The notes under the pieces are model-generated. The model did no database searches. It saw only the letters and a program-made list of their open reading frames with translations, and had not been told where the DNA came from. Both the position numbers and the translations under genes were made by a program. This document shows, piece after piece, positions 1 through 64,000 of a DNA stretch of 64,000 nt. Each line of letters opens with the position of its first letter. The stretch's first letter is position 1. Origin of the DNA: Loxodes magnus (lineage: Eukaryota; Ciliophora; Karyorelictea; Loxodida; Loxodidae); the NCBI GenBank assembly GCA_946699065.1, contig CAMPDV010000021.1, forward strand, positions 620,001-684,000. The letters are read 5' to 3'.

Positions 1-2990
1 ACCGTATAATCTGAACTTCCCGATACGATGAACTCTGAATCACTGGATATAGCCACAGATGATACTCAATCTGTTTGACCACTCATGGTCTTACAAGTAC
101 CTGTCTTGAAGTCCCATAGTCTTACCGTATAATCTGCACTTCCCGATACGATGAACTCTGAGTCACTGGATATAGCCACAGATCTTACATAATCTGTGTG
201 ACCACTCATGGTCTTTCCTGTCTTGACGTCCCATAGTCTCACCGTATTATCATAACTTCCCGATACGATGAACTCTGAATCACTGGATATAGCCACAGCA
301 TTTACATAACTAGTGTGATCACTCATGGTCTTACAGGTACCTGTCTTGACGTCCCATAGTCTTACCGTATAATCTGCACTTCCCGATACAATGAACTCTG
401 AATAACTGGATATAGCCACAGCATATACATAACTAGTGTGATCACTCATGGTCTTACAGGTACCTGTCTTGACGTCCCATAGTCTCACCGTATAATCTGA
501 ACTTCCCGATACGATGAACTCTGAATCACTGGATATAGCCACAGATCTTACAGAATAAGTGTGATCACTCATGGTCTTACAGGTACCTGTCTTGACGTCC
601 CATAGTCTTACCGTATAATCTGCACTTCCCGATACAATGAACTCTGAATAACTGGATATAGCCACAGCATATACATAACTAGTGTGATCACTCATGGTCT
701 TACAGGTACCTGTCTTGACGTCCCATAGTCTCACCGTATAATCATCACTTCCCGATACGATGAACTCTGAATCACTGGATATAGCCACAGATGATACTTA
801 ATCTGTGTGACCACTCATGGTCTTACAGGTACCTGTCTTGACGTCCCATAGTCTTACCGTATAATCATCACTTCCCGATACGATGAACTCTGAATCACTG
901 GATATAGCCACAGCATATACAACATTTGTGTGACCACTCATGGTCTTACAGGTACCTGTCTTGACGTCCCATAGTCTTACCGTATAATCTGAACTTCCCG
1001 ATACGATGAACTCTGAATCACTGGATATAGCCACAGATCTTACAGAATAAGTGTGATCACTCATGGTCTTACAGGTACCTGTCTTGACGTCCCATAGTCT
1101 CACCGTATAATCTGAACTTCCCGATACGATGAACTCTGAATCACTGGATATAGCCACAGATCTTACAGAATAAGTGTGATCACTCATGGTCTTACAGGTA
1201 CCTGTCTTGACGTCCCATAGTCTTACCGTATAATCTGCACTTCCCGATACAATGAACTCTGAATAACTGGATATAGCCACAGCATATACATAACTAGTGT
1301 GATCACTCATGGTCTTACAGGTACCTGTCTTGACGTCCCATAGTCTCACCGTATAATCATCACTTCCCGATACGATGAACTCTGAATAACTGGATATAGC
1401 CACAGATGATACTTAATCTGTGTGACCACTCATGGTCTTACAGGTACCTGTCTTGAAGTCCCATAGTCTTACCGTATAATCTGCACTTCCCGATACGATG
1501 AACTCTGAATCACTGGATATAGCCACAGATTTTACATAATCTGTGTGACCACTCATGGTCTTACAGGTACCTGTCTTGACGCCCATAGTCTTACCGTCTT
1601 ATCATCACTTCCCGATACGATGAACTCTGAATCACTGGATATAGCCACAGATCTTACAGAATAAGTGTGATCACTCATGGTCTTACAAGTACCTGTCTTG
1701 ACGTCCCATAGTCTCACCGTATAATCTGCACTTCCCGATACGATGAACTCTGAATCACTGGATATAGCCACAGCATATACATAACTAGTGTGACCACTCA
1801 TGGTCTTACAGGTACCTGTCTTGACGTCCCATAGTCTCACCGTATAATCTGAACTTCCCGATACGATGAACTCTGAATCACTGGATATAGCCACAGATCT
1901 TACAGAATAAGTGTGATCACTCATGGTCTTACAGGTACCTGTCTTGACGTCCCATAGTCTCACCGTATAATCATCACTTCCCGATACGATGAACTCTGAA
2001 TCACTGGATATAGCCACAGATGATACTTAATCTGTGTGACCACTCATGGTCTTACAGGTACCTGTCTTGACGTCCCATAGTCTTACCGTATAATCATCAC
2101 TTCCCGATACGATGAACTCTGAATCACTGGATATAGCCACAGATCTTACAGAATAAGTGTGATCACTCATGGTCTTACAGGTACCTGTCTTGACGTCCCA
2201 TAGTCTCACCGTATAATCTGCACTTCCCGATACGATGAACTCTGAATCACTGGATATAGCCACAGATCTTACAGAATAAGTGTGATCACTCATGGTCTTA
2301 CAGGTACCTGTCTTGACGTCCCATAGTCTTACCGTATAATCTGCACTTCCCGATACGATGAACTCTGAGTCACTGGATATAGCCACAGATAATACATGAT
2401 CTGTTTAACCACTCATGGTCTTACAAGTACCTGTCTTGAAGTCCCATAGTCTTACCGTATAATCTGCACTTCCCGATACGATGAACTCTGAATCACTGGA
2501 TATAGCCACAGATCTTACAGAATAAGTGTGATCACTCATGGTCTTACAGGTACCTGTCTTGACGTCCCATAGTCTCACCGTCTTATCTGCACTTCCCGAT
2601 ACGATGAACTCTGAGTCACTGGATATAGCCACAGATAATACATGATCTGTTTGACCACTCATGGTCTTACAAGTACCTGTCTTGAAGTCTCATAGTCTTA
2701 CCGTATAATCTGCACTTCCCGATACGATGAACTCTGAATCACTGGATATAGCCACAGCATATACAGAATCTGTGTGACCACTCATGGTCTTACAGGTACC
2801 TGTCTTGAAGTCCCATAGTCTTACCGTCTTATCTCCACTTCCCGATACGATGAACTCTGAATCACTGGATATAGCCACAGATGATACTCAATCTGTGTGA
2901 CCACTCATGGTCTTACAGGTACCTGTCTTGACGTCCCATAGTCTTACCGTATAATCTGCACTTCCCGATACGATGAACTCTGAGTCACTG
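1..2990 (-). repeat. Array region 1, left flank: DHT-type WD40 units
   Basis: About 24 units mix the cassettes DHTYSVRS, DHTSYVYA, GHTDYVRS and GQTDHVLS at residues 1-8, with A, S, D, Y or G at residue 23. Synonymous alleles typical of this end are ATT for I18 (plus-strand gatacaatg) and GTA for V27 (plus-strand cttaccg). Open segments of 240, 201, 154, 119, 85 and 62 codons end at stops near 66, 798, 1413, 1553 (after the frameshift), 2027, 2405 and 2690. The TAA near 2405 replaces Gln at codon 2 of a GQTDHVLS unit, and the TGA near 2690 replaces the Trp of WD. One unit near 210 carries the 6-bp deletion that turns KTGTCKT into KTGKT. Confidence 0.85.
1575..1590 (-). other. Single-base deletion shifting the WD40 frame
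   Basis: Across the array the plus strand reads cttgacgtcccatag at the WDVK motif. Here it reads cttgacgcccatag, lacking one T after position 1581. On the minus strand this moves the frame by one base, so the open segment 1553-2017 leaves the WD40 consensus after RLW and ends in an unrelated short tail. Stops on the left side (66, 798, 1413) lie in a different coordinate phase from every later stop (1553 to 63179), which confirms the shift. It is the only frameshift I found in about 520 units. It could be a real mutation or a base-calling error. Confidence 0.85.
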
Positions 2991-3002
2991 GATATAGCCA
3001 CA

Positions 3003-10900: not shown

Positions 10901-11270
10901 TGTCTTGACGTCCCATAGTCTTACCGTATAATCTGAACTTCCCGATACGATGAACTCTGAATCACTGGATATAGCCACAGATCTTACAGAATAAGTGTGA
11001 TCACTCATGGTCTTACAGGTACCTGTCTTGACGTCCCATAGTCTCACCGTATAATCATCACTTCCCGATACGATGAACTCTGAATCACTGGATATAGCCA
11101 CAGCATATACATAACTAGTGTGATCACTCATGGTCTTACAAGTACCTGTCTTGAAGTCCCATAGTCTTACCGTATAATCTGCACTTCCCGATACGATGAA
11201 CTCTGAATAACTGGATATAGCCACAGCATATACATAACTAGTGTGATCACTCATGGTCTTACAAGTACCT
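7911..11270 (-). repeat. 40-unit higher-order repeat, copy 2 (partial)
   Basis: This follows copy 1 directly and matches it at an offset of 4,908 bp until about 11.27 kb, where the unit order changes and region-2 units begin. The copies are not identical. Between about 8.7 and 9.1 kb several units carry different residue 1-8 and 23 alleles from their partners at 3.8-4.2 kb, for example GHTDYVYA in place of DHTYSVRS. The unit near 9080 has an AVYR turn where the partner has DDYT. Such patchy differences suggest short gene-conversion tracts after the block duplication. Confidence 0.8.
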
Positions 11271-32330: not shown

Positions 32331-32680
32331 ATGGTCTTACAGGTACCTGTCTTGACGTCCCATAGTCTCACCGTATAATCTGCACTTCCCGATACGATGA
32401 ACTCTGAATAACTGGATATAGCCACAGATCTTACATAACTAGTGTGATCACTCATGGTCTTACAGGTACCTGTATTGAAGTCCCATAGTCTCACCGTCTT
32501 ATCATAACTTCCCGATACGATGAACTCTGAATCACTGGATATAACCACAGATGATACATAACTAGTGTGACCACTCATGGTCTTACAGGTACCTGTCTTG
32601 ACGTCCCATAGTCTCACCGTCTTATCTGCACTTCCCGATACGATGAACTCTGAATAACTGGATATAGCCACAGATGATAC

Positions 32681-40666: not shown

Positions 40667-40669
40667 AGA

Positions 40670-42142: not shown

Positions 42143-42766
42143 AGATCATACATAACTAGTGTGACCACTCATGGTCTTACAGGTACCTGTCTTGACGTCC
42201 CATAGTCTTACCGTATAATCTGCACTTCCCGATACGATGAACTCTGAATAACTGGATATAGCCACATCATATACAACATTTGTGTGACCACTCATGGTCT
42301 TACAGGTACCTGTCTTGACGTCCCATAGTCTCACCGTATAATCTGCACTTCCCGATACGATGAACTCTGAATAACTGGATATAGCCACAGCATATACAAC
42401 ATTTGTGTGACCACTCATGGTCTTACAGGTACCTGTCTTGAAGTCCCATAGTCTCACCGTCTTATCTGCACTTCCCGATACGATGAACTCTGAATAACTG
42501 GATATAGCCACAGCATATACAACATTTGTGTGACCACTCATGGTCTTACAGGTACCTGTCTTGACGTCCCATAGTCTCACCGTATAATCTGCACTTCCCG
42601 ATACGATGAACTCTGAATCACTGGATATATCCACAGCAGATACATACCATGTGTGACCACTCATGGTCTTACAGGTACCTGTCTTGAAGTCCCATAGTCT
42701 TACCGTATAATCTGCACTTCCCGATACGATGAACTCTGAATAACTGGATATAGCCACAGATGATAC

Positions 42767-43987
42767 TTAATCTGTGTGACCACTCATAGTCTTACAGGTA
42801 CCTGTCTTGAAGTCCCATAGTCTCACCGTCTTATCTGCACTTCCCGATACGATGAACTCTGAATAACTGGATATAGCCACAGCATATACAACATTTGTGT
42901 GACCACTCATGGTCTTACAGGTACCTGTCTTGAAGTCCCATAGTCTTACCGTATAATCTGCACTTCCCGATACGATGAACTCTGAATCACTGGATATATC
43001 CACAGCAGATACATACCATGTGTGACCACTCATGGTCTTACAGGTACCTGTCTTGACGTCCCATAGTCTCACCGTATAATCTGCACTTCCCGATACGATG
43101 AACTCTGAATAACTGGATATAGCCACAGCATATACAACATTTGTGTGACCACTCATGGTCTTACAGGTACCTGTCTTGAAGTCCCATAGTCTCACCGTCT
43201 TATCTGCACTTCCCGATACGATGAACTCTGAATAACTGGATATAGCCACAGCATATACAACATTTGTGTGACCACTCATGGTCTTACAGGTACCTGTCTT
43301 GACGTCCCATAGTCTCACCGTATAATCTGCACTTCCCGATACGATGAACTCTGAATCACTGGATATATCCACAGCAGATACATACCATGTGTGACCACTC
43401 ATGGTCTTACAGGTACCTGTCTTGAAGTCCCATAGTCTTACCGTATAATCTGCACTTCCCGATACGATGAACTCTGAGTCACTGGATATAGCCACAGATA
43501 ATACATGATCTGTTTGACCACTCATGGTCTTACAAGTACCTGTCTTGAAGTCCCATAGTCTTACCGTATAATCTGCACTTCCCGATACGATGAACTCTGA
43601 ATAACTGGATATAGCCACAGATAATACATACCATGTGTGACCACTCATGGTCTTACAGGTACCTGTCTTGAAGTCCCATAGTCTCACCGTCTTATCTGCA
43701 CTTCCCGATACGATGAACTCTGAATAACTGGATATAGCCACAGCATATACAACATTTGTGTGACCACTCATGGTCTTACAGGTACCTGTCTTGAAGTCCC
43801 ATAGTCTTACCGTATAATCATCACTTCCCGATACGATGAACTCTGAATAACTGGATATAGCCACATCATATACAACATTTGTGTGACCACTCATGGTCTT
43901 ACAGGTACCTGTCTTGACGTCCCATAGTCTTACCGTATAATCTGCACTTCCCGATACGATGAACTCTGAATCACTGGATATAGCCAC
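42767..43987 (-). CDS. Open WD40 segment, 406 codons, 44-mer copy 1
   Basis: About ten blades rich in V32F (WDFK) and ADK turns, ending with TAA at codon 5. It contains one WYVLS-QTDHVLS-WYVSAVD series plus several GHTNVVYA blades and a DDY blade. Just beyond its upstream stop is the odd two-blade segment 43997-44233, with DHTYSVRS, SAALSS and V32M. An identical copy is at 48179-49399. Confidence 0.35.
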   Translation of the reverse strand: MAISSDSEFIVSGSADYTVRLWDVKTGTCKTMSGHTNVVYDVAISSYSEFIVSGSDDYTVRLWDFKTGTCKTMSGHTNVVYAVAISSYSEFIVSGSADKTVRLWDFKTGTCKTMSGHTWYVLSVAISSYSEFIVSGSADYTVRLWDFKTGTCKTMSGQTDHVLSVAISSDSEFIVSGSADYTVRLWDFKTGTCKTMSGHTWYVSAVDISSDSEFIVSGSADYTVRLWDVKTGTCKTMSGHTNVVYAVAISSYSEFIVSGSADKTVRLWDFKTGTCKTMSGHTNVVYAVAISSYSEFIVSGSADYTVRLWDVKTGTCKTMSGHTWYVSAVDISSDSEFIVSGSADYTVRLWDFKTGTCKTMSGHTNVVYAVAISSYSEFIVSGSADKTVRLWDFKTGTCKTMSGHTD

Positions 43988-45097
43988 AGATGATACTTAA
44001 TCTGTGTGACCACTCATAGTCTTACAAGTACCTGTCATGACGTCCCATAGTCTTACCGTATAATCTGAACTTCCCGATACGATGAACTCTGAATCACTGG
44101 ATAAAGCCGCAGATCTTACAGAATAAGTGTGATCACTCATGGTCTTACAGGTACCTGTCTTGACGTCCCATAGTCTCACCGTCTTATCATCACTTCCCGA
44201 TACAATGAACTCTGAATCACTGGATATAGCCACAGATGATACTTAATCTGTGTGACCACTCATAGTCTTACAGGTACCTGTCTTGACGTCCCATAGTCTC
44301 ACCGTCTTATCATAACTTCCCGATACGATGAACTCTGAATCACTGGATATAGCCACAGATAATACATAATCTGTGTGACCACTCATGGTCTTACAGGTAC
44401 CTGTCTTGACGTCCCATAGTCTTACCGTATAATCTGAACTTCCCGATACGATGAACTCTGAATAACTGGATATAGCCACATCATATACAACATTTGTGTG
44501 ACCACTCATGGTCTTACAGGTACCTGTCTTGACGTCCCATAGTCTCACCGTATAATCTGCACTTCCCGATACGATGAACTCTGAATAACTGGATATAGCC
44601 ACAGCATATACAACATTTGTGTGACCACTCATGGTCTTACAGGTACCTGTCTTGAAGTCCCATAGTCTTACCGTATAATCTGCACTTCCCGATACGATGA
44701 ACTCTGAATCACTGGATATATCCACAGCAGATACATACCATGTGTGACCACTCATGGTCTTACAGGTACCTGTCTTGAAGTCCCTTAGTCTTACCGTATA
44801 ATCTGCACTTCCCGATACGATGAACTCTGAGTCACTGGATATAGCCACAGATAATACATGATCTGTTTGACCACTCATGGTCTTACAAGTACCTGTCTTG
44901 AAGTCCCATAGTCTTACCGTATAATCTGCACTTCCCGATACGATGAACTCTGAATAACTGGATATAGCCACAGATAATACATACCATGTGTGACCACTCA
45001 TGGTCTTACAGGTACCTGTCTTGAAGTCCCATAGTCTTACCGTATAATCTGCACTTCCCGATACGATGAACTCTGAATCACTGGATATAGCCACAGA

Positions 45098-46078
45098 TCA
45101 TACATAACTAGTGTGACCACTCATGGTCTTACAGGTACCTGTCTTGACGTCCCATAGTCTCACCGTCTTATCATCACTTACCGATACGATGAACTCTGAA
45201 TAACTGGATATAGCCACATCATATACAACATTTGTGTGACCACTCATGGTCTTACAGGTACCTGTCTTGACGTCCCATAGTCTCACCGTATAATCTGCAC
45301 TTCCCGATACGATGAACTCTGAATAACTGGATATAGCCACAGCATATACAACATTTGTGTGACCACTCATGGTCTTACAGGTACCTGTCTTGAAGTCCCA
45401 TAGTCTTACCGTATAATCTGCACTTCCCGATACGATGAACTCTGAATCACTGGATATATCCACAGCAGATACATACCATGTGTGACCACTCATGGTCTTA
45501 CAGGTACCTGTCTTGACGTCCCATAGTCTCACCGTATAATCTGCACTTCCCGATACGATGAACTCTGAATAACTGGATATAGCCACAGCATATACAACAT
45601 TTGTGTGACCACTCATGGTCTTACAGGTACCTGTCTTGAAGTCCCATAGTCTTACCGTATAATCTGCACTTCCCGATACGATGAACTCTGAATCACTGGA
45701 TATATCCACAGCAGATACATACCATGTGTGACCACTCATGGTCTTACAGGTACCTGTCTTGAAGTCCCATAGTCTTACCGTATAATCTGCACTTCCCGAT
45801 ACGATGAACTCTGAGTCACTGGATATAGCCACAGATAATACATGATCTGTTTGACCACTCATGGTCTTACAAGTACCTGTCTTGAAGTCCCATAGTCTTA
45901 CCGTATAATCTGCACTTCCCGATACGATGAACTCTGAATAACTGGATATAGCCACAGATAATACATACCATGTGTGACCACTCATGGTCTTACAGGTACC
46001 TGTCTTGAAGTCCCATAGTCTTACCGTATAATCTGCACTTCCCGATACGATGAACTCTGAATCACTGGATATAGCCAC
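45098..46078 (-). CDS. Open WD40 segment, 326 codons, 44-mer copy 2
   Basis: Duplicate of 39686-40666, with the same order of eight blades, the same G21V mark near 45180 and the same TGA stop alleles on both sides. I see no residue difference between the two. Confidence 0.35.
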   Translation of the reverse strand: MAISSDSEFIVSGSADYTVRLWDFKTGTCKTMSGHTWYVLSVAISSYSEFIVSGSADYTVRLWDFKTGTCKTMSGQTDHVLSVAISSDSEFIVSGSADYTVRLWDFKTGTCKTMSGHTWYVSAVDISSDSEFIVSGSADYTVRLWDFKTGTCKTMSGHTNVVYAVAISSYSEFIVSGSADYTVRLWDVKTGTCKTMSGHTWYVSAVDISSDSEFIVSGSADYTVRLWDFKTGTCKTMSGHTNVVYAVAISSYSEFIVSGSADYTVRLWDVKTGTCKTMSGHTNVVYDVAISSYSEFIVSVSDDKTVRLWDVKTGTCKTMSGHTSYV

Positions 46079-46081
46079 AGA

Positions 46082-47554
46082 TCATACATAACTAGTGTGA
46101 CCACTCATGGTCTTACAGGTACCTGTCTTGACGTCCCATAGTCTTACCGTATAATCTGCACTTCCCGATACGATGAACTCTGAATAACTGGATATAGCCA
46201 CATCATATACAACATTTGTGTGACCACTCATGGTCTTACAGGTACCTGTCTTGACGTCCCATAGTCTCACCGTATAATCTGCACTTCCCGATACGATGAA
46301 CTCTGAATAACTGGATATAGCCACAGCATATACAACATTTGTGTGACCACTCATGGTCTTACAGGTACCTGTCTTGAAGTCCCATAGTCTTACCGTATAA
46401 TCTGCACTTCCCGATACGATGAACTCTGAATCACTGGATATATCCACAGCAGATACATACCATGTGTGACCACTCATGGTCTTACAGGTACCTGTCTTGA
46501 AGTCCCATAGTCTTACCGTATAATCTGCACTTCCCGATACGATGAACTCTGAGTCACTGGATATAGCCACAGATAATACATGATCTGTTTGACCACTCAT
46601 GGTCTTACAAGTACCTGTCTTGAAGTCCCATAGTCTTACCGTATAATCTGCACTTCCCGATACGATGAACTCTGAATAACTGGATATAGCCACAGATAAT
46701 ACATACCATGTGTGACCACTCATGGTCTTACAGGTACCTGTCTTGAAGTCCCATAGTCTTACCGTATAATCTGCACTTCCCGATACGATGAACTCTGAAT
46801 AACTGGATATAGCCACATCATATACAACATTTGTGTGACCACTCATGGTCTTACAGGTACCTGTCTTGACGTCCCATAGTCTCACCGTATAATCTGCACT
46901 TCCCGATACGATGAACTCTGAATCACTGGATATATCCACAGCAGATACATACCATGTGTGACCACTCATGGTCTTACAGGTACCTGTCTTGACGTCCCAT
47001 AGTCTCACCGTATAATCTGCACTTCCCGATACGATGAACTCTGAATAACTGGATATAGCCACAGCATATACAACATTTGTGTGACCACTCATGGTCTTAC
47101 AGGTACCTGTCTTGAAGTCCCATAGTCTTACCGTATAATCTGCACTTCCCGATACGATGAACTCTGAATCACTGGATATATCCACAGCAGATACATACCA
47201 TGTGTGACCACTCATGGTCTTACAGGTACCTGTCTTGAAGTCCCATAGTCTTACCGTATAATCTGCACTTCCCGATACGATGAACTCTGAGTCACTGGAT
47301 ATAGCCACAGATAATACATGATCTGTTTGACCACTCATGGTCTTACAAGTACCTGTCTTGAAGTCCCATAGTCTTACCGTATAATCTGCACTTCCCGATA
47401 CGATGAACTCTGAATAACTGGATATAGCCACAGATAATACATACCATGTGTGACCACTCATGGTCTTACAGGTACCTGTCTTGAAGTCCCATAGTCTTAC
47501 CGTATAATCTGCACTTCCCGATACGATGAACTCTGAATCACTGGATATAGCCAC
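46082..47554 (-). CDS. Open WD40 segment, 490 codons, 44-mer copy 2
   Basis: Duplicate of 40670-42142, with twelve blades, two internal WYVLS-QTDHVLS-WYVSAVD series and TGA at codon 7 at both limits. It reads the same as its partner. Confidence 0.38.
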   Translation of the reverse strand: MAISSDSEFIVSGSADYTVRLWDFKTGTCKTMSGHTWYVLSVAISSYSEFIVSGSADYTVRLWDFKTGTCKTMSGQTDHVLSVAISSDSEFIVSGSADYTVRLWDFKTGTCKTMSGHTWYVSAVDISSDSEFIVSGSADYTVRLWDFKTGTCKTMSGHTNVVYAVAISSYSEFIVSGSADYTVRLWDVKTGTCKTMSGHTWYVSAVDISSDSEFIVSGSADYTVRLWDVKTGTCKTMSGHTNVVYDVAISSYSEFIVSGSADYTVRLWDFKTGTCKTMSGHTWYVLSVAISSYSEFIVSGSADYTVRLWDFKTGTCKTMSGQTDHVLSVAISSDSEFIVSGSADYTVRLWDFKTGTCKTMSGHTWYVSAVDISSDSEFIVSGSADYTVRLWDFKTGTCKTMSGHTNVVYAVAISSYSEFIVSGSADYTVRLWDVKTGTCKTMSGHTNVVYDVAISSYSEFIVSGSADYTVRLWDVKTGTCKTMSGHTSYV

Positions 47555-48178
47555 AGATCATACATAACTAGTGTGACCACTCATGGTCTTACAGGTACCT
47601 GTCTTGACGTCCCATAGTCTTACCGTATAATCTGCACTTCCCGATACGATGAACTCTGAATAACTGGATATAGCCACATCATATACAACATTTGTGTGAC
47701 CACTCATGGTCTTACAGGTACCTGTCTTGACGTCCCATAGTCTCACCGTATAATCTGCACTTCCCGATACGATGAACTCTGAATAACTGGATATAGCCAC
47801 AGCATATACAACATTTGTGTGACCACTCATGGTCTTACAGGTACCTGTCTTGAAGTCCCATAGTCTCACCGTCTTATCTGCACTTCCCGATACGATGAAC
47901 TCTGAATAACTGGATATAGCCACAGCATATACAACATTTGTGTGACCACTCATGGTCTTACAGGTACCTGTCTTGACGTCCCATAGTCTCACCGTATAAT
48001 CTGCACTTCCCGATACGATGAACTCTGAATCACTGGATATATCCACAGCAGATACATACCATGTGTGACCACTCATGGTCTTACAGGTACCTGTCTTGAA
48101 GTCCCATAGTCTTACCGTATAATCTGCACTTCCCGATACGATGAACTCTGAATAACTGGATATAGCCACAGATGATAC

Positions 48179-49399
48179 TTAATCTGTGTGACCACTCATA
48201 GTCTTACAGGTACCTGTCTTGAAGTCCCATAGTCTCACCGTCTTATCTGCACTTCCCGATACGATGAACTCTGAATAACTGGATATAGCCACAGCATATA
48301 CAACATTTGTGTGACCACTCATGGTCTTACAGGTACCTGTCTTGAAGTCCCATAGTCTTACCGTATAATCTGCACTTCCCGATACGATGAACTCTGAATC
48401 ACTGGATATATCCACAGCAGATACATACCATGTGTGACCACTCATGGTCTTACAGGTACCTGTCTTGACGTCCCATAGTCTCACCGTATAATCTGCACTT
48501 CCCGATACGATGAACTCTGAATAACTGGATATAGCCACAGCATATACAACATTTGTGTGACCACTCATGGTCTTACAGGTACCTGTCTTGAAGTCCCATA
48601 GTCTCACCGTCTTATCTGCACTTCCCGATACGATGAACTCTGAATAACTGGATATAGCCACAGCATATACAACATTTGTGTGACCACTCATGGTCTTACA
48701 GGTACCTGTCTTGACGTCCCATAGTCTCACCGTATAATCTGCACTTCCCGATACGATGAACTCTGAATCACTGGATATATCCACAGCAGATACATACCAT
48801 GTGTGACCACTCATGGTCTTACAGGTACCTGTCTTGAAGTCCCATAGTCTTACCGTATAATCTGCACTTCCCGATACGATGAACTCTGAGTCACTGGATA
48901 TAGCCACAGATAATACATGATCTGTTTGACCACTCATGGTCTTACAAGTACCTGTCTTGAAGTCCCATAGTCTTACCGTATAATCTGCACTTCCCGATAC
49001 GATGAACTCTGAATAACTGGATATAGCCACAGATAATACATACCATGTGTGACCACTCATGGTCTTACAGGTACCTGTCTTGAAGTCCCATAGTCTCACC
49101 GTCTTATCTGCACTTCCCGATACGATGAACTCTGAATAACTGGATATAGCCACAGCATATACAACATTTGTGTGACCACTCATGGTCTTACAGGTACCTG
49201 TCTTGAAGTCCCATAGTCTTACCGTATAATCATCACTTCCCGATACGATGAACTCTGAATAACTGGATATAGCCACATCATATACAACATTTGTGTGACC
49301 ACTCATGGTCTTACAGGTACCTGTCTTGACGTCCCATAGTCTTACCGTATAATCTGCACTTCCCGATACGATGAACTCTGAATCACTGGATATAGCCAC
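48179..49399 (-). CDS. Open WD40 segment, 406 codons, 44-mer copy 2
   Basis: Duplicate of 42767-43987 with about ten blades, followed on its upstream side by the same two-blade DHTYSVRS/SAALSS/V32M segment (49409-49645). Confidence 0.35.
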   Translation of the reverse strand: MAISSDSEFIVSGSADYTVRLWDVKTGTCKTMSGHTNVVYDVAISSYSEFIVSGSDDYTVRLWDFKTGTCKTMSGHTNVVYAVAISSYSEFIVSGSADKTVRLWDFKTGTCKTMSGHTWYVLSVAISSYSEFIVSGSADYTVRLWDFKTGTCKTMSGQTDHVLSVAISSDSEFIVSGSADYTVRLWDFKTGTCKTMSGHTWYVSAVDISSDSEFIVSGSADYTVRLWDVKTGTCKTMSGHTNVVYAVAISSYSEFIVSGSADKTVRLWDFKTGTCKTMSGHTNVVYAVAISSYSEFIVSGSADYTVRLWDVKTGTCKTMSGHTWYVSAVDISSDSEFIVSGSADYTVRLWDFKTGTCKTMSGHTNVVYAVAISSYSEFIVSGSADKTVRLWDFKTGTCKTMSGHTD

Positions 49400-49554
49400 A
49401 GATGATACTTAATCTGTGTGACCACTCATAGTCTTACAAGTACCTGTCATGACGTCCCATAGTCTTACCGTATAATCTGAACTTCCCGATACGATGAACT
49501 CTGAATCACTGGATAAAGCCGCAGATCTTACAGAATAAGTGTGATCACTCATGG

Positions 49555-51540
49555 TCTTACAGGTACCTGTCTTGACGTCCCATAGTCTCACCGTCTTATC
49601 ATCACTTCCCGATACAATGAACTCTGAATCACTGGATATAGCCACAGATGATACTTAATCTGTGTGACCACTCATAGTCTTACAGGTACCTGTCTTGACG
49701 TCCCATAGTCTCACCGTCTTATCATAACTTCCCGATACGATGAACTCTGAATCACTGGATATAGCCACAGATAATACATAATCTGTGTGACCACTCATGG
49801 TCTTACAGGTACCTGTCTTGACGTCCCATAGTCTTACCGTATAATCTGAACTTCCCGATACGATGAACTCTGAATAACTGGATATAGCCACATCATATAC
49901 AACATTTGTGTGACCACTCATGGTCTTACAGGTACCTGTCTTGACGTCCCATAGTCTCACCGTATAATCTGCACTTCCCGATACGATGAACTCTGAATAA
50001 CTGGATATAGCCACAGCATATACAACATTTGTGTGACCACTCATGGTCTTACAGGTACCTGTCTTGAAGTCCCATAGTCTTACCGTATAATCTGCACTTC
50101 CCGATACGATGAACTCTGAATCACTGGATATATCCACAGCAGATACATACCATGTGTGACCACTCATGGTCTTACAGGTACCTGTCTTGAAGTCCCTTAG
50201 TCTTACCGTATAATCTGCACTTCCCGATACGATGAACTCTGAGTCACTGGATATAGCCACAGATAATACATGATCTGTTTGACCACTCATGGTCTTACAA
50301 GTACCTGTCTTGAAGTCCCATAGTCTTACCGTATAATCTGCACTTCCCGATACGATGAACTCTGAATCACTGGATATATCCACAGATAATACATACCATG
50401 TGTGACCACTCATGGTCTTACAGGTACCTGTCTTGAAGTCCCATAGTCTTACCGTATAATCTGCACTTCCCGATACGATGAACTCTGAATAACTGGATAT
50501 AGCCACAGATGATACTTAACTAGTGTGACCACTCATGGTCTTACAGGTACCTGTCTTGACGTCCCATAGTCTCACCGTCTTATCATCACTTACCGATACG
50601 ATGAACTCTGAATAACTGGATATAGCCACATCATATACAACATTTGTGTGACCACTCATGGTCTTACAGGTACCTGTCTTGACGTCCCATAGTCTCACCG
50701 TATAATCTGCACTTCCCGATACGATGAACTCTGAATAACTGGATATAGCCACAGCATATACAACATTTGTGTGACCACTCATGGTCTTACAGGTACCTGT
50801 CTTGAAGTCCCATAGTCTTACCGTATAATCTGCACTTCCCGATACGATGAACTCTGAATCACTGGATATATCCACAGCAGATACATACCATGTGTGACCA
50901 CTCATGGTCTTACAGGTACCTGTCTTGACGTCCCATAGTCTCACCGTATAATCTGCACTTCCCGATACGATGAACTCTGAATAACTGGATATAGCCACAG
51001 CATATACAACATTTGTGTGACCACTCATGGTCTTACAGGTACCTGTCTTGAAGTCCCATAGTCTTACCGTATAATCTGCACTTCCCGATACGATGAACTC
51101 TGAATCACTGGATATATCCACAGCAGATACATACCATGTGTGACCACTCATGGTCTTACAGGTACCTGTCTTGAAGTCCCATAGTCTTACCGTATAATCT
51201 GCACTTCCCGATACGATGAACTCTGAGTCACTGGATATAGCCACAGATAATACATGATCTGTTTGACCACTCATGGTCTTACAAGTACCTGTCTTGAAGT
51301 CCCATAGTCTTACCGTATAATCTGCACTTCCCGATACGATGAACTCTGAATAACTGGATATAGCCACAGATAATACATACCATGTGTGACCACTCATGGT
51401 CTTACAGGTACCTGTCTTGAAGTCCCATAGTCTTACCGTATAATCTGCACTTCCCGATACGATGAACTCTGAATCACTGGATATAGCCACAGATCATACA
51501 TAACTAGTGTGACCACTCATGGTCTTACAGGTACCTGTCT
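49555..51540 (-). repeat. 44-unit higher-order repeat, copy 3 (partial)
   Basis: A third copy runs for about 16 units at +5,412 bp and then breaks near 51.5 kb. It differs from copy 2 in places: the unit near 50370 has A10D with D14 where the partners have A10 and Y14, and the stop near 50516 is TAA at codon 5 instead of TGA at codon 7. After the break, the G21V unit recurs only 984 bp (eight units) later, near 51576, showing a rearranged continuation. Confidence 0.82.
50516..51490 (-). CDS. Open WD40 segment, 324 codons, 44-mer copy 3
   Basis: Nearly the same as 39686-40666 and 45098-46078 but ended by a TAA at codon 5 rather than the TGA at codon 7, so it lacks the last two residues. About eight blades with the G21V mark at ~50592. 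Confidence 0.33.
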   Translation of the reverse strand: MAISSDSEFIVSGSADYTVRLWDFKTGTCKTMSGHTWYVLSVAISSYSEFIVSGSADYTVRLWDFKTGTCKTMSGQTDHVLSVAISSDSEFIVSGSADYTVRLWDFKTGTCKTMSGHTWYVSAVDISSDSEFIVSGSADYTVRLWDFKTGTCKTMSGHTNVVYAVAISSYSEFIVSGSADYTVRLWDVKTGTCKTMSGHTWYVSAVDISSDSEFIVSGSADYTVRLWDFKTGTCKTMSGHTNVVYAVAISSYSEFIVSGSADYTVRLWDVKTGTCKTMSGHTNVVYDVAISSYSEFIVSVSDDKTVRLWDVKTGTCKTMSGHTS

Positions 51541-55948: not shown

Positions 55949-57171
55949 GGTCTTACAGGTACCTGTCTTGACGTCCTATAGTCTCACCGTCTTATCATCA
56001 CTTCCCGATACGATGAACTCTGAATCACTGGATATAGCCACAGATCATACATAACTAGTGTGACCACTCATGGTCTTACAGGTACCTGTCTTGACGTCCC
56101 ATAGTCTCACCGTCTTATCATAACTTCCCTATACGATGAACTCTGAATCACTGGATATAGCCACAGATAATACATAACTAGTGTGACCACTCATGGTCTT
56201 ACAGGTACCTGTCTTGACGTCCCATAGTCTCACCGTCTTATCATCACTTCCCGATACGATGAACTCTGAATCACTGGATATAGCCACAGATCTTACATAA
56301 CTAGTGTGATCACTCATGGTCTTACAGGTACCTGTCTTGACGTCCCATAGTCTCACCGTCTTATCATAACTTCCCGATACGATGAACTCTGAATCACTGG
56401 ATATAGCCACAGATAATACATAACTAGTGTGACCACTCATGGTCTTACAGGTACCTGTCTTGACGTCCCATAGTCTCACCGTCTTATCTGCACTTCCCGA
56501 TACGATGAACTCTGAGTCACTGGATATAGCCACAGATCATACATAACTAGTGTGACCACTCATGGTCTTACAGGTACCTGTCTTGACGTCCCATAGTCTC
56601 ACCGTCTTATCATCACTTCCCGATACGATGAACTCTGAATCACTGGATATAGCCACAGATAATACATAACTAGTGTGACCACTCATGGTCTTACAGGTAC
56701 CTGTCTTGACGTCCCATAGTCTCACCGTCTTATCATAACTTCCCGATACGATGAACTCTGAATCACTGGATATAGCCACAGATAATACATAATCTGTGTG
56801 ACCACTCATGGTCTTACAGGTACCTGTCTTGACGTCCCATAGTCTCACCGTATAATCTGCACTTCCCGATACGATGAACTCTGAATAACTGGATATAGCC
56901 ACAGCATATACAACATTTGTGTGACCACTCATGGTCTTACAGGTACCTGTCTTGACGTCCCATAGTCTCACCGTATAATCTGCACTTCCCGATACGATGA
57001 ACTCTGAATAACTGGATATAGCCACATCATATACAACATTTGTGTGACCACTCATGGTCTTACAGGTACCTGTCTTGACGTCCCATAGTCTCACCGTATA
57101 ATCTGCACTTCCCGATACGATGAACTCTGAATAACTGGATATAGCCACAGATAATACATAATCTGTGTGAC

Positions 57172-60000
57172 CACTCATGGTCTTACAGGTACCTGTCTTG
57201 ACGTCCTATAGTCTTACCGTATAATCTGCACTTCCCGATACGATGAACTCTGAATCACTGGATATATCCACAGCAGATACATACCATGTGTGACCACTCA
57301 TGGTCTTACAGGTACCTGTCTTGAAGTCCCATAGTCTTACCGTATAATCTGCACTTCCCGATACGATGAACTCTGAATAACTGGATATAGCCACAGCATA
57401 TACAACATTTGTGTGACCACTCATGGTCTTACAGGTACCTGTCTTGACGTCCCATAGTCTCACCGTCTTATCATAACTTCCCGATACGATGAACTCTGAA
57501 TCACTGGATATAGCCACAGATCATACATAACTAGTGTGACCACTCATGGTCTTACAGGTACCTGTCTTGACGTCCCATAGTCTCACCGTCTTATCATCAC
57601 TTCCCGATACGATGAACTCTGAATCACTGGATATAGCCACAGATCTTACATAACTAGTGTGATCACTCATGGTCTTACAGGTACCTGTCTTGACGTCCCA
57701 TAGTCTCACCGTCTTATCATAACTTCCCGATACGATGAACTCTGAATCACTGGATATAGCCACAGATAATACATAACTAGTGTGACCACTCATGGTCTTA
57801 CAGGTACCTGTCTTGACGTCCCATAGTCTCACCGTCTTATCTGCACTTCCCGATACGATGAACTCTGAGTCACTGGATATAGCCACAGCATTTACATAAC
57901 TAGTGTGACCACTCATGGTCTTACAGGTACCTGTCTTGAAGTCCCATAGTCTCACCGTATAATCTGCACTTCCCGATACGATGAACTCTGAATAACTGGA
58001 TATAGCCACATCATATACAACATTTGTGTGACCACTCATGGTCTTACAGGTACCTGTCTTGACGTCCCATAGTCTCACCGTATAATCTGCACTTCCCGAT
58101 ACGATGAACTCTGAATAACTGGATATAGCCACAGCATTTACATAACTAGTGTGACCACTCATGGTCTTACAGGTACCTGTCTTGACGTCCCATAGTCTCA
58201 CCGTATAATCTGCACTTCCCGATACGATGAACTCTGAATAACTGGATATAGCCACATCATATACAACATTTGTGTGACCACTCATGGTCTTACAGGTACC
58301 TGTCTTGAAGTCCCATAGTCTCACCGTATAATCTGCACTTCCCGATACGATGAACTCTGAGTCACTGGATATAGCCACAGCATTTACATAACTAGTGTGA
58401 CCACTCATGGTCTTACAGGTACCTGTCTTGACGTCCCATAGTCTCACCGTATAATCTGCACTTCCCGATACGATGAACTCTGAATAACTGGATATAGCCA
58501 CATCATATACAACATTTGTGTGACCACTCATGGTCTTACAGGTACCTGTCTTGACGTCCCATAGTCTCACCGTATAATCTGCACTTCCCGATACGATGAA
58601 CTCTGAATAACTGGATATAGCCACAGCATATACAACATTTGTGTGACCACTCATGGTCTTACAGGTACCTGTCTTGAAGTCCCATAGTCTTACCGTATAA
58701 TCTGCACTTCCCGATACGATGAACTCTGAATCACTGGATATATCCACAGATAATACATGATCTGTTTGACCACTCATGGTCTTACAAGTACCTGTCTTGA
58801 AGTCCCATAGTCTCACCGTCTTATCATAACTTCCCGATACGATGAACTCTGAATAACTGGATATAGCCACAGATAATACATAACTAGTGTGACCACTCAT
58901 GGTCTTACAGGTACCTGTCTTGACGTCCCATAGTCTCACCGTCTTATCTGCACTTCCCGATACGATGAACTCTGAATAACTGGATATAGCCACAGATAAT
59001 ACATAATCTGTGTGACCACTCATGGTCTTACAGGTACCTGTCTTGACGTCCTATAGTCTCACCGTCTTATCTGCACTTCCCGATACGATGAACTCTGAAT
59101 AACTGGATATAGCCACAGCATATACAACATTTGTGTGACCACTCATGGTCTTACAGGTACCTGTCTTGACGTCCCATAGTCTCACCGTATAATCTGCACT
59201 TCCCGATACGATGAACTCTGAATAACTGGATATAGCCACATCATATACAACATTTGTGTGACCACTCATGGTCTTACAGGTACCTGTCTTGACGTCCCAT
59301 AGTCTCACCGTCTTATCATCGCTTCCCGATACGATGAACTCTGAATCACTGGATATAGCCACAGATAATACAGAATCTGTGTGACCACTCATGGTCTTAC
59401 AGGTACCTGTCTTGAAGTCCCATAGTCTCACCGTATAATCTGCACTTCCCGATACGATGAACTCTGAATCACTGGATATAGCCACAGATAATACATGATC
59501 TGTTTGACCACTCATGGTCTTACAGGTACCTGTCTTGACGTCCCATAGTCTTACCGTATAATCTGCACTTCCCGATACAATGAACTCTGAATCACTGGAT
59601 ATAGCCACAGATCTTACATAACTAGTGTGATCACTCATGGTCTTACAGGTACCTGTCTTGACGTCCCATAGTCTCACCTTCTTATCATCGCTTCCCGATA
59701 CGATGAACTCTGAATCACTGGATATAGCCACAGATAATACAGAATCTGTGTGACCACTCATGGTCTTACAGGTACCTGTCTTGACGTCCCATAGTCTCAC
59801 CGTCTTATCATAACTTCCCGATACGATGAACTCTGAATCACTGGATATAGCCACAGATAATACATAATCTGTGTGACCACTCATGGTCTTACAGGTACCT
59901 GTCTTGACGTCCCATAGTCTCACCGTATAATCTGCACTTCCCGATACGATGAACTCTGAATAACTGGATATAGCCACAGATAATACATACCATGTGTGAC
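57172..60000 (-). repeat. 23-unit higher-order repeat (2,829 bp), copy 1
   Basis: The block is exactly 23 x 123 bp. Marks recurring at +2,829 bp include T26K (DDKKVRL, plus-strand caccttctt near 59686 and 62515), SVDISS after GQTDHVL (near 58742 and 61571) and TAG at the Trp of WD (near 57204, 60033 and 62862). Cassettes are NVVYD, SYVNA, SYVLS, DHTSYVRS and DSVLS. Confidence 0.92.
57521..59023 (-). CDS. Open WD40 segment, 500 codons, 23-mer copy 1
   Basis: About twelve blades from ATG codon 40 (27 bases past a WD-to-TAG unit) to TGA at codon 7. The middle alternates GHTSYVNA and GHTNVVYD three times, a two-unit sub-repeat. One blade joins GQTDHVLS to A10D. Identical at 60350-61852. Confidence 0.38.
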   Translation of the reverse strand: MSGHTDYVLSVAISSYSEFIVSGSADKTVRLWDVKTGTCKTMSGHTSYVLSVAISSYSEFIVSGSYDKTVRLWDFKTGTCKTMSGQTDHVLSVDISSDSEFIVSGSADYTVRLWDFKTGTCKTMSGHTNVVYAVAISSYSEFIVSGSADYTVRLWDVKTGTCKTMSGHTNVVYDVAISSYSEFIVSGSADYTVRLWDVKTGTCKTMSGHTSYVNAVAISSDSEFIVSGSADYTVRLWDFKTGTCKTMSGHTNVVYDVAISSYSEFIVSGSADYTVRLWDVKTGTCKTMSGHTSYVNAVAISSYSEFIVSGSADYTVRLWDVKTGTCKTMSGHTNVVYDVAISSYSEFIVSGSADYTVRLWDFKTGTCKTMSGHTSYVNAVAISSDSEFIVSGSADKTVRLWDVKTGTCKTMSGHTSYVLSVAISSDSEFIVSGSYDKTVRLWDVKTGTCKTMSDHTSYVRSVAISSDSEFIVSGSDDKTVRLWDVKTGTCKTMSGHTSYV

Positions 60001-60007
60001 CACTCAT
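59051..60007 (-). CDS. Open WD40 segment, 318 codons, 23-mer copy 1
   Basis: About eight blades from ATG codon 40 to TAG at the next WD. It has GHTWYVLS, GHTDYVLS, GHTDSVLS with the rare DDKKVRL turn, DHTSYVRS, GQTDHVLS and NVV blades. Identical at 61880-62836. The short segment 57206-57517 lies between stops on its downstream side. Confidence 0.33.
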   Translation of the reverse strand: MSGHTWYVLSVAISSYSEFIVSGSADYTVRLWDVKTGTCKTMSGHTDYVLSVAISSDSEFIVSGSYDKTVRLWDVKTGTCKTMSGHTDSVLSVAISSDSEFIVSGSDDKKVRLWDVKTGTCKTMSDHTSYVRSVAISSDSEFIVSGSADYTVRLWDVKTGTCKTMSGQTDHVLSVAISSDSEFIVSGSADYTVRLWDFKTGTCKTMSGHTDSVLSVAISSDSEFIVSGSDDKTVRLWDVKTGTCKTMSGHTNVVYDVAISSYSEFIVSGSADYTVRLWDVKTGTCKTMSGHTNVVYAVAISSYSEFIVSGSADKTVRL

Positions 60008-62829
60008 GGTCTTACAGGTACCTGTCTTGACGTCCTATAGTCTTACCGTATAATCTGCACTTCCCGATACGATGAACTCTGAATCACTGGATATATCCAC
60101 AGCAGATACATACCATGTGTGACCACTCATGGTCTTACAGGTACCTGTCTTGAAGTCCCATAGTCTTACCGTATAATCTGCACTTCCCGATACGATGAAC
60201 TCTGAATAACTGGATATAGCCACAGCATATACAACATTTGTGTGACCACTCATGGTCTTACAGGTACCTGTCTTGACGTCCCATAGTCTCACCGTCTTAT
60301 CATAACTTCCCGATACGATGAACTCTGAATCACTGGATATAGCCACAGATCATACATAACTAGTGTGACCACTCATGGTCTTACAGGTACCTGTCTTGAC
60401 GTCCCATAGTCTCACCGTCTTATCATCACTTCCCGATACGATGAACTCTGAATCACTGGATATAGCCACAGATCTTACATAACTAGTGTGATCACTCATG
60501 GTCTTACAGGTACCTGTCTTGACGTCCCATAGTCTCACCGTCTTATCATAACTTCCCGATACGATGAACTCTGAATCACTGGATATAGCCACAGATAATA
60601 CATAACTAGTGTGACCACTCATGGTCTTACAGGTACCTGTCTTGACGTCCCATAGTCTCACCGTCTTATCTGCACTTCCCGATACGATGAACTCTGAGTC
60701 ACTGGATATAGCCACAGCATTTACATAACTAGTGTGACCACTCATGGTCTTACAGGTACCTGTCTTGAAGTCCCATAGTCTCACCGTATAATCTGCACTT
60801 CCCGATACGATGAACTCTGAATAACTGGATATAGCCACATCATATACAACATTTGTGTGACCACTCATGGTCTTACAGGTACCTGTCTTGACGTCCCATA
60901 GTCTCACCGTATAATCTGCACTTCCCGATACGATGAACTCTGAATAACTGGATATAGCCACAGCATTTACATAACTAGTGTGACCACTCATGGTCTTACA
61001 GGTACCTGTCTTGACGTCCCATAGTCTCACCGTATAATCTGCACTTCCCGATACGATGAACTCTGAATAACTGGATATAGCCACATCATATACAACATTT
61101 GTGTGACCACTCATGGTCTTACAGGTACCTGTCTTGAAGTCCCATAGTCTCACCGTATAATCTGCACTTCCCGATACGATGAACTCTGAGTCACTGGATA
61201 TAGCCACAGCATTTACATAACTAGTGTGACCACTCATGGTCTTACAGGTACCTGTCTTGACGTCCCATAGTCTCACCGTATAATCTGCACTTCCCGATAC
61301 GATGAACTCTGAATAACTGGATATAGCCACATCATATACAACATTTGTGTGACCACTCATGGTCTTACAGGTACCTGTCTTGACGTCCCATAGTCTCACC
61401 GTATAATCTGCACTTCCCGATACGATGAACTCTGAATAACTGGATATAGCCACAGCATATACAACATTTGTGTGACCACTCATGGTCTTACAGGTACCTG
61501 TCTTGAAGTCCCATAGTCTTACCGTATAATCTGCACTTCCCGATACGATGAACTCTGAATCACTGGATATATCCACAGATAATACATGATCTGTTTGACC
61601 ACTCATGGTCTTACAAGTACCTGTCTTGAAGTCCCATAGTCTCACCGTCTTATCATAACTTCCCGATACGATGAACTCTGAATAACTGGATATAGCCACA
61701 GATAATACATAACTAGTGTGACCACTCATGGTCTTACAGGTACCTGTCTTGACGTCCCATAGTCTCACCGTCTTATCTGCACTTCCCGATACGATGAACT
61801 CTGAATAACTGGATATAGCCACAGATAATACATAATCTGTGTGACCACTCATGGTCTTACAGGTACCTGTCTTGACGTCCTATAGTCTCACCGTCTTATC
61901 TGCACTTCCCGATACGATGAACTCTGAATAACTGGATATAGCCACAGCATATACAACATTTGTGTGACCACTCATGGTCTTACAGGTACCTGTCTTGACG
62001 TCCCATAGTCTCACCGTATAATCTGCACTTCCCGATACGATGAACTCTGAATAACTGGATATAGCCACATCATATACAACATTTGTGTGACCACTCATGG
62101 TCTTACAGGTACCTGTCTTGACGTCCCATAGTCTCACCGTCTTATCATCGCTTCCCGATACGATGAACTCTGAATCACTGGATATAGCCACAGATAATAC
62201 AGAATCTGTGTGACCACTCATGGTCTTACAGGTACCTGTCTTGAAGTCCCATAGTCTCACCGTATAATCTGCACTTCCCGATACGATGAACTCTGAATCA
62301 CTGGATATAGCCACAGATAATACATGATCTGTTTGACCACTCATGGTCTTACAGGTACCTGTCTTGACGTCCCATAGTCTTACCGTATAATCTGCACTTC
62401 CCGATACAATGAACTCTGAATCACTGGATATAGCCACAGATCTTACATAACTAGTGTGATCACTCATGGTCTTACAGGTACCTGTCTTGACGTCCCATAG
62501 TCTCACCTTCTTATCATCGCTTCCCGATACGATGAACTCTGAATCACTGGATATAGCCACAGATAATACAGAATCTGTGTGACCACTCATGGTCTTACAG
62601 GTACCTGTCTTGACGTCCCATAGTCTCACCGTCTTATCATAACTTCCCGATACGATGAACTCTGAATCACTGGATATAGCCACAGATAATACATAATCTG
62701 TGTGACCACTCATGGTCTTACAGGTACCTGTCTTGACGTCCCATAGTCTCACCGTATAATCTGCACTTCCCGATACGATGAACTCTGAATAACTGGATAT
62801 AGCCACAGATAATACATACCATGTGTGAC
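60001..62829 (-). repeat. 23-unit higher-order repeat, copy 2
   Basis: It adjoins copy 1, with every stop and rare mark at +2,829 bp and open segments that read the same (103, 500 and 318 codons). I see no residue difference from copy 1, so it is very young, under active homogenisation, or an assembly duplication. Confidence 0.92.
60350..61852 (-). CDS. Open WD40 segment, 500 codons, 23-mer copy 2
   Basis: Duplicate of 57521-59023: twelve blades, three SYVNA/NVVYD alternations, ATG codon 40 start and TGA codon 7 end. It reads the same as its partner. Confidence 0.38.
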   Translation of the reverse strand: MSGHTDYVLSVAISSYSEFIVSGSADKTVRLWDVKTGTCKTMSGHTSYVLSVAISSYSEFIVSGSYDKTVRLWDFKTGTCKTMSGQTDHVLSVDISSDSEFIVSGSADYTVRLWDFKTGTCKTMSGHTNVVYAVAISSYSEFIVSGSADYTVRLWDVKTGTCKTMSGHTNVVYDVAISSYSEFIVSGSADYTVRLWDVKTGTCKTMSGHTSYVNAVAISSDSEFIVSGSADYTVRLWDFKTGTCKTMSGHTNVVYDVAISSYSEFIVSGSADYTVRLWDVKTGTCKTMSGHTSYVNAVAISSYSEFIVSGSADYTVRLWDVKTGTCKTMSGHTNVVYDVAISSYSEFIVSGSADYTVRLWDFKTGTCKTMSGHTSYVNAVAISSDSEFIVSGSADKTVRLWDVKTGTCKTMSGHTSYVLSVAISSDSEFIVSGSYDKTVRLWDVKTGTCKTMSDHTSYVRSVAISSDSEFIVSGSDDKTVRLWDVKTGTCKTMSGHTSYV

Positions 62830-62836
62830 CACTCAT
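61880..62836 (-). CDS. Open WD40 segment, 318 codons, 23-mer copy 2
   Basis: Duplicate of 59051-60007, including the DDKKVRL blade near 62515 and the terminal TAG at the Trp of WD. Confidence 0.33.
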   Translation of the reverse strand: MSGHTWYVLSVAISSYSEFIVSGSADYTVRLWDVKTGTCKTMSGHTDYVLSVAISSDSEFIVSGSYDKTVRLWDVKTGTCKTMSGHTDSVLSVAISSDSEFIVSGSDDKKVRLWDVKTGTCKTMSDHTSYVRSVAISSDSEFIVSGSADYTVRLWDVKTGTCKTMSGQTDHVLSVAISSDSEFIVSGSADYTVRLWDFKTGTCKTMSGHTDSVLSVAISSDSEFIVSGSDDKTVRLWDVKTGTCKTMSGHTNVVYDVAISSYSEFIVSGSADYTVRLWDVKTGTCKTMSGHTNVVYAVAISSYSEFIVSGSADKTVRL

Positions 62837-64000
62837 GGTCTTACAGGTACCTGTCTTGACGTCCTATAGTCTTACCGTATAATCTGCACTTCCCGATACG
62901 ATGAACTCTGAATCACTGGATATATCCACAGCAGATACATACCATGTGTGACCACTCATGGTCTTACAGGTACCTGTCTTGAAGTCCCATAGTCTTACCG
63001 TATAATCTGCACTTCCCGATACGATGAACTCTGAATAACTGGATATAGCCACAGCATATACAACATTTGTGTGACCACTCATGGTCTTACAGGTACCTGT
63101 CTTGACGTCCCATAGTCTCACCGTCTTATCATAACTTCCCGATACGATGAACTCTGAATCACTGGATATAGCCACAGATCATACATAACTAGTGTGACCA
63201 CTCATGGTCTTACAGGTACCTGTCTTGACGTCCCATAGTCTCACCGTCTTATCATCACTTCCCGATACGATGAACTCTGAATCACTGGATATAGCCACAG
63301 ATCTTACATAACTAGTGTGATCACTCATGGTCTTACAGGTACCTGTCTTGACGTCCCATAGTCTCACCGTCTTATCATAACTTCCCGATACGATGAACTC
63401 TGAATCACTGGATATAGCCACAGATAATACATAACTAGTGTGACCACTCATGGTCTTACAGGTACCTGTCTTGACGTCCCATAGTCTCACCGTCTTATCT
63501 GCACTTCCCGATACGATGAACTCTGAGTCACTGGATATAGCCACAGCATTTACATAACTAGTGTGACCACTCATGGTCTTACAGGTACCTGTCTTGAAGT
63601 CCCATAGTCTCACCGTATAATCTGCACTTCCCGATACGATGAACTCTGAATAACTGGATATAGCCACATCATATACAACATTTGTGTGACCACTCATGGT
63701 CTTACAGGTACCTGTCTTGACGTCCCATAGTCTCACCGTATAATCTGCACTTCCCGATACGATGAACTCTGAATAACTGGATATAGCCACAGCATTTACA
63801 TAACTAGTGTGACCACTCATGGTCTTACAGGTACCTGTCTTGACGTCCCATAGTCTCACCGTATAATCTGCACTTCCCGATACGATGAACTCTGAATAAC
63901 TGGATATAGCCACATCATATACAACATTTGTGTGACCACTCATGGTCTTACAGGTACCTGTCTTGAAGTCCCATAGTCTCACCGTATAATCTGCACTTCC
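62830..64000 (-). repeat. 23-unit higher-order repeat, copy 3 (cut by window edge)
   Basis: The third copy matches copies 1 and 2 from its left edge to the end of the window, about nine and a half units. The array therefore continues to the right, and the number of 23-unit copies is unknown. Confidence 0.88.
63179..63982 (-). CDS. Open WD40 segment, at least 267 codons, cut by edge
   Basis: Third-copy equivalent of 57521-59023 and 60350-61852, open to the window edge on its upstream side. By comparison with its partners it should extend to about 500 codons if the copy stays intact beyond the window. Confidence 0.33.
   Translation of the reverse strand: MRLWDFKTGTCKTMSGHTNVVYDVAISSYSEFIVSGSADYTVRLWDVKTGTCKTMSGHTSYVNAVAISSYSEFIVSGSADYTVRLWDVKTGTCKTMSGHTNVVYDVAISSYSEFIVSGSADYTVRLWDFKTGTCKTMSGHTSYVNAVAISSDSEFIVSGSADKTVRLWDVKTGTCKTMSGHTSYVLSVAISSDSEFIVSGSYDKTVRLWDVKTGTCKTMSDHTSYVRSVAISSDSEFIVSGSDDKTVRLWDVKTGTCKTMSGHTSYV

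Follow-up and report, generated by a model that had tools for sequence, protein, structure and literature searches.

What is a stretch of DNA that consists, from end to end, of tandem copies of one short unit with the pattern of a protein repeat: a gene, a satellite, or a satellite made from a gene? We addressed this question in the karyorelict ciliate Loxodes magnus, where positions 620,001-684,000 of contig CAMPDV010000021.1 (hereafter C21), a stretch of 64,000 nucleotides that we call the window, are filled with 123-bp units related to the WD40 blade. The analyses described below suggest, with a probability that we place at about 0.7, that the window belongs to a gene-derived satellite, which originated from a recognition-type WD40 gene and is now neutral in the sampled copies. 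Loci read during this analysis are designated with L numbers.

Organization and abundance of the array

The analysis of the whole window with Tandem Repeats Finder (TRF) generated a single row that covered positions 1-64000, with a period of 123, 521.2 copies, 92% matches, and 1% indels. This result bore out the original prediction, made from the letters alone, that one 123-bp unit fills the window in about 520 copies. When the 520 near-complete units were aligned, the mean identity to the consensus MSGHTNYVISVAISSDSEFIVSGSADYTVRLWDVKTGTCKT was 94.2%, in agreement with the near-identity that had been claimed for them, and the unit length was 123 bp in 502, 117 bp in 17, and 122 bp in one. The minus strand of the 123-bp unit corresponds to a 41-residue WD40 blade, with the consensus MSGHT...LWD, i.e., the GH ... 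WD pattern. Two seven-blade segments were tested against Pfam, and seven stretches above the cut-off of the WD40 family (PF00400) were found in each of them; by sequence, the best solved-structure match of a seven-blade segment was 2ymu, a WD-40 repeat protein. One reading frame is kept from position 64000 to about position 1,584, at which a single -1 deletion breaks it. The in-frame 41-residue blade that had been proposed was supported by the PF00400 matches, with the qualifications that the coding strand is the minus strand and that the frame is interrupted once. This frame contains 49 TAA, 33 TAG, and 39 TGA codons, which went unmentioned in the original prediction. The highest exact recurrence of units was observed at lags of 44, 6, and 23 units, and the longest exact repeats measured 6,234 bp (offset of 5,412 bp, i.e., 44 units) and 4,008 bp (offset of 2,829 bp, i.e., 23 units), confirming that the array has the higher-order structure expected for it.

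The extent of the array was established by reading loci along the contig. Between C21:100,001 and 704,000, 15 loci of ten kb each were read, and all of them were array, in the same orientation; the five C21 loci read outside the array range were not. Twenty 300-base probes placed the array edges at 50.3-58.0 kb and 724.3-728.0 kb, and a unit found at C21:54,896 tightens the bracket of the left edge. Because of these probes, and of the presence of the array in every sampled locus between them, we estimate an array length of about 670 kb, about ten times that of the window; by arithmetic, this corresponds to 5,440-5,510 units, about one third of which was actually read. The GC content was 43-44% in the 15 array loci versus 24-30% in the five outside loci.

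The unit was then searched for in the whole assembly (705,730,643 bases in 7,843 contigs), as had been recommended in the original prediction. Three unit-specific exact patterns gave 374,649, 384,409, and 387,793 matches, and each reversed control gave 0. The genome therefore contains at least 387,793 units, on many contigs, and as this lower bound comes from an exact-pattern count, the 47.7 Mb to which it amounts at 123 bp per unit, or 6.8% of the assembly, is also a minimum. Since the last two patterns recovered about 75% of the units from 12 other contigs (379 and 381 of 509, respectively), the true total may be, by estimate, nearer 500,000 units. A shorter WD40 array was also observed at C4:2,225,722-2,243,341, where some adjacent units are 125 bp apart, indicating that a further frame-breaking variant is present there.

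Comparison of the distinct units showed that 69 were common to the window and other C21 loci. However, only 3 of the 269 distinct units from the 12 other contigs (9 of 509 copies) were also present in the C21 set of 783 distinct units. This sharing within C21 but hardly across contigs indicates that homogenization is array-specific. Collectively, four features of satellite DNA were found: long head-to-tail arrays, a very high copy number, array-specific homogenization, and higher-order repeats.

Distribution of variation within the blade

The selection and entropy tables were built with the 123-bp units, which represented 2,162 of the 2,249 units from 37 sources; the 87 units of other length and the partial end units were omitted, and the C21 loci L001-L006 and L035 are not part of the unit tables. 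The 2,162 units comprised 1,049 distinct sequences. In this distinct set, the most variable codons by amino-acid entropy were, in order, 9, 25, 7, 6, 27, 10, 34, and 5, and codons 6, 7, 9, 10, 25, and 27 carried 63% of the nucleotide diversity. The ratio of non-synonymous to synonymous diversity (piN/piS) over codons 5, 6, 7, 9, 10, 25, and 27 was 2.13 in the distinct units and 2.10-2.32 in the other sets. When the window was analyzed alone, codon 16 replaced codon 5 among the top eight, and in the other contigs codon 33 replaced codon 34.

These positions can be compared with those of the HNWD proteins of the fungus Podospora anserina, in whose WD40 repeats codons 7, 9, 25, and 27, around the conserved codons 8 and 26, are described as strongly positively selected, the residues concerned being located at the top of the propeller (PMC1805685). 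In the distinct units, codons 7, 9, 25, and 27 rank third, first, second, and fifth of 41 by entropy, in a register deduced for the fungal repeat. A later HNWD numbering gives the positions of high dN/dS as 10, 11, 12, 14, 30, 32, and 39 (PMC12222747); a shift by 5 turns them into 5, 6, 7, 9, 25, 27, and 34, which are seven of the top eight codons of the array. This shift was deduced by equating 7/9/25/27 with 12/14/30/32. The chance of finding four given codons among the top 5 of 41 is 4.9e-5, and that of finding seven among the top eight is 3.6e-7, both figures assuming independent codons and hanging on the deduced register. The location of the variation strongly implies a coding ancestor.

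The linkage between the variable blocks was also analyzed. In the distinct units, codons 3-10 had 1.71 bits of mutual information with codons 25-27, versus 1.42 in shuffled data, and the blocks 25-27 and 28-41 were more linked (1.31 versus 0.90). The variable blocks of the blade are, thus, partly reshuffled.

Coding capacity and alternative explanations

The meaning of the in-frame TAA, TAG, and TGA codons depends on the genetic code. At about 1.11 Mb of C21 (L028:9160-9999), an open reading frame (ORF) matches PP1-alpha with an E value of 3.3e-176, and five of its seven in-frame TAA/TAG codons align with glutamine of PP1-alpha, showing that TAA and TAG are glutamine codons. It follows that the 82 TAA and TAG codons of the window frame are sense codons and that the 39 TGA codons are ambiguous. 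The view based on the standard code, with in-frame TAA/TAG as stops of a pseudogene, was dropped, as the PP1 ORF has such codons at glutamines. This ORF runs off the locus and adjoins a broken, partly duplicated PP1 copy. A frame of about 6.8 kb at L027:2500-9300 (C21, about 0.90 Mb) contains 7 TGA, 115 TAA/TAG, and 41 TGG codons; no Pfam family above the cut-off was found in it, and if TGA is sense, it would encode a large protein of unknown family. These data are consistent with internal TGA as tryptophan, and the L. magnus paper gives translation table 27, in which UGA can be read either as a stop or as tryptophan (PMC11441545). Since every codon can be read as sense, an open frame carries no proof by itself.

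Next, coding constraint was assessed from the variants. Rare framework variants, i.e., those present in no more than 5 of the 2,162 units, included 22 synonymous changes versus 21.0 expected, and 75 non-synonymous changes. The framework omega was 0.94 (interval 0.58-1.60) and ranged from 0.90 to 1.10 in eight other subsets, the intervals being wide and compatible with weak selection. In the sampled units the framework therefore looks neutral, and the current selection expected for the repeats of a live gene was not detected. On C21, 32 of 1,725 units break the frame, versus 40 in-frame units of 117 bp, and on the other contigs 12 of 524 units do so, versus 3 in-frame units of this length. One -1 deletion variant was found 183 times, with at least 60 on C21 (60 of the 100 places listed), from 54,896 to 696,514, and it has either spread within the array or recurred. 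Because of these frame-breaking units and the presence of the deletion at least 60 times along C21, a single giant ORF of 670 kb was rejected. The original prediction had offered two origins for the locus. An extraordinary gene family locus was not supported for the sampled copies, with omega near 1 and recurring frame-breaking units, and in the other proposal, a WD40 exon turned into a satellite, it is the satellite origin that gained support, from the array-specific homogenization, the abundance, the neutral framework, and the recurring -1 deletion.

Some observations weigh against a loss of coding function. The abundance-weighted framework piN/piS was 0.38-0.59 in frame 0, and 0.60-0.78, once 1.55, in the shifted frames; the unit length varies far less (502 of 520 units of modal length) than that of an 83-bp satellite of C21 (52 of 119); and open frames of 2,839 aa (contig C626) and 1,816 aa (contig C6009) under the standard code are found in WD40 arrays. 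Live copies are, therefore, possible. Purifying selection, as the frame-0 ratio would suggest, was not upheld once variants were counted by type. We conclude that the sampled copies are mostly not maintained as coding, a statement that holds for the sampled units and not for every array. Candidate live WD40 genes lie at C626:22,828-23,103 and C6009:18,422-18,697.

The gene-derived satellite that we favor could have arisen as follows. An ancestral WD40-repeat protein with near-identical blades would have diversified at surface residues, as the fungal HNWD receptors did, and a multi-blade stretch of its gene, in which many surface variants were already present, would have been the founder. Unequal exchange and gene conversion would then have enlarged this founder into arrays of tens to hundreds of kb on many contigs, with the two variable blocks of the blade partly reshuffled and the arrays homogenized one by one, so that the satellites would retain the surface diversity of the founder while the framework drifts. 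We infer the coding ancestor under diversifying selection, this order of events, and the untranslated state of most copies from the patterns described above.

Other explanations were weighed against this one. It is very unlikely that the arrays are live giant genes, in which TAA/TAG would be read as glutamine, internal TGA would be read as tryptophan, and very large WD40 proteins would be made: the framework omega is about 1, 32 of 1,725 units break the frame on C21, the -1 deletion recurs along this contig, and 14 of the 520 window units have TAG in place of the codon for the structural tryptophan. Such genes would fit with a code that has no obligatory stop (PMC11441545), with the one frame over 62.4 kb of the window, with the 117-bp units that keep the frame (17 in the window and 40 on C21), with surface codons that vary as in receptors, and with the long open frames that C626 and C6009 show under the standard code. 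An artefact, in which a shorter array was misassembled and both its copy number and length were inflated, is highly improbable, as 1,049 distinct sequences were found among 2,162 units, the variants are array-specific, the unit is present on many contigs, and exact repeats in the window do not exceed 6.2 kb. HiFi reads usually span a repeat of this length. The exact length of the array may still be affected by misassembly. HiFi reads with a coverage of about 20-30x were assembled with Falcon, and the L. magnus authors ascribe the size difference between the micronuclear (MIC) and macronuclear (MAC) assemblies to misassembled low-complexity repeats (PMC11441545).

A mixed system was also considered, in which silent arrays predominate but live ones, or live linked genes, also exist, and blades pass between them by gene conversion, the satellite being the donor library of a recognition protein. 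The same variable codons on C21 and 12 other contigs, the partial reshuffling of the variable blocks (1.71 versus 1.42 bits), the long open frames on other contigs, and loci with no frameshift and few TAA/TAG/TGA codons, such as L037 (26 units, 0 frameshifts, and 1 TAG), are in line with such a system, and in P. anserina exchange is believed to take place between pseudogene repeats and active loci (PMC1805685). We nevertheless regard it as unlikely, because no live gene was found, the searches for NACHT (31 matches in the genome) and NB-ARC (2 matches) were empty on C21, and only 3 of 269 distinct units were shared, the array-specific units disfavoring frequent exchange between contigs. With none of these matches on C21, linkage of the array to NLR genes was not supported by the NACHT and NB-ARC searches. 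The two NB-ARC matches, at C10:523,845-524,462 and C9:314,778-315,332, are also NACHT matches, with in-frame TAA/TAG codons; on each of contigs C2 and C3, a NACHT match is present together with small WD40 patches, at a distance of at least about 1 Mb among the matches listed. It is decidedly unlikely that the ciliate keeps several hundred thousand blades as a library of binding surfaces, with mostly silent arrays feeding a few expressed recognition proteins by gene conversion. If this were true, these proteins would act in self/non-self recognition or mating discrimination, in a system thousands of times larger than that of the fungal HNWD genes.

Array boundaries and relation to known systems

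The features of the window are compiled in Table 1.

Table 1. Positions of the features identified in the 64,000-nucleotide window of C21.
Feature	Position	Strand	Evidence or remark
521 tandem WD40-blade units of 123 bp, within the C21 array of about 670 kb	1..64000	-	TRF, unit alignment
Single-frame stretch of 62,413 bases; 49 TAA and 33 TAG (Gln in the deduced code), 39 TGA (Trp or stop)	1587..64000	-	Frame reading
Unit with the frame-breaking -1 deletion, the sole 122-bp unit of the window	1552..1584	-	Same variant located at C21:621,552-621,584
44-unit higher-order repeat (5,412 bp); 6,234-bp exact repeat from 38,722 versus copy 5,412 bp further	38722..50367	-	Exact-repeat analysis
23-unit higher-order repeat (2,829 bp); 4,008-bp exact repeat from 57,164 versus copy 2,829 bp further	57164..64000	-	Exact-repeat analysis
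Example seven-blade segment, 287 aa by table 27	27665..28525	-	7 Pfam WD40 stretches; best solved relative 2ymu, by sequence

The boundaries of the arrays were analyzed as well. On contig C2816, a dispersed repeat adjoins the end of the array, the junction lying at L031:757 (C2816:35,598). From 507 first-look candidates for this flank, 40 were scored, and 14 of them, C2816 included, cross the junction and 26 do not. Five of the 13 other junction-crossing copies were read, and all of them end in WD40, two being degenerate; WD40 was found in none of the five non-crossing copies that were read. As several junction-crossing copies end in WD40, the array edge itself was multiplied. A LINE (long interspersed nuclear element) endonuclease in the C2816 flank, which a resemblance had suggested, is not claimed, with 0 Pfam matches in three frames; a PDB search with one frame of this flank gave three chains of the unrelated sorting nexin-11, with E values of about 1. 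At the start of C21, an AT-rich and unrelated satellite of about 83 bp was observed (L009 and L049-L051, corresponding to C21:1-10,000 and the probes at 18, 26, and 34 kb). At the other side, an interspersed repeat (L064, C21:728,001-728,300) lies at most 4 kb from the right array edge; it had 811 first-look candidates, and the 40 copies scored showed 80-83% identity, apart from L064 itself. A translated search connected L064 with parts of L025 and L026. The Rfam and tRNA scans of five loci (L009 and L025-L028) gave nothing.

The assembly analyzed here is probably the MAC assembly of the L. magnus paper, which is reported to contain 231 Mbp of low-complexity tandem repeats in 706 Mbp; its main text has 0 occurrences of WD40, and the passages that concern us give no repeat unit for its tandem repeats (PMC11441545). 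No published account of a WD40 satellite in Loxodes or karyorelicts was found in the open-access papers searched, supplements lying outside this search. Neither satellites nor highly repetitive WD40 proteins are new in themselves. In the present assembly, however, a single coding blade accounts for at least about 7% of the sequence and has retained the surface-variability signature of recognition receptors, which would be a direct example of how a coding repeat of the receptor type became a major satellite. It also illustrates that a code without obligatory stops can mask the loss of coding constraint, and makes the donor-library role of such arrays a testable question.

Massive satellite amplification has been described in ciliates for Sat1 and Sat2 of Paramecium caudatum, although these are micronuclear, have units of 332 and 449 bp, and come without a coding description in the sections considered (PMC8354472). 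In Paramecium tetraurelia, WD40 repeats are named among the MAC-destined tandem repeats, but those of all kinds total 0.49 Mb there (PMC5405496). Highly repetitive WD40 propellers were likewise amplified from single blades, and some are broken by frameshifts or stops; however, the survey maximum is 47 blades, and here there are thousands in a single array, at the scale of a satellite (PMC9218822). The array also resembles the HNWD genes het-d, het-e, and het-r of P. anserina, with near-identical blades (126 bp there and 123 bp here), concerted evolution, and variation at codons 7, 9, 25, and 27 around the conserved 8 and 26 (PMC1805685, PMC2873952, and PMC12222747). In those reports, one strain has 69 repeats, carried by genes that also encode HET and NACHT domains, whereas L. 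magnus has at least 387,793 units, with a neutral framework in those sampled.

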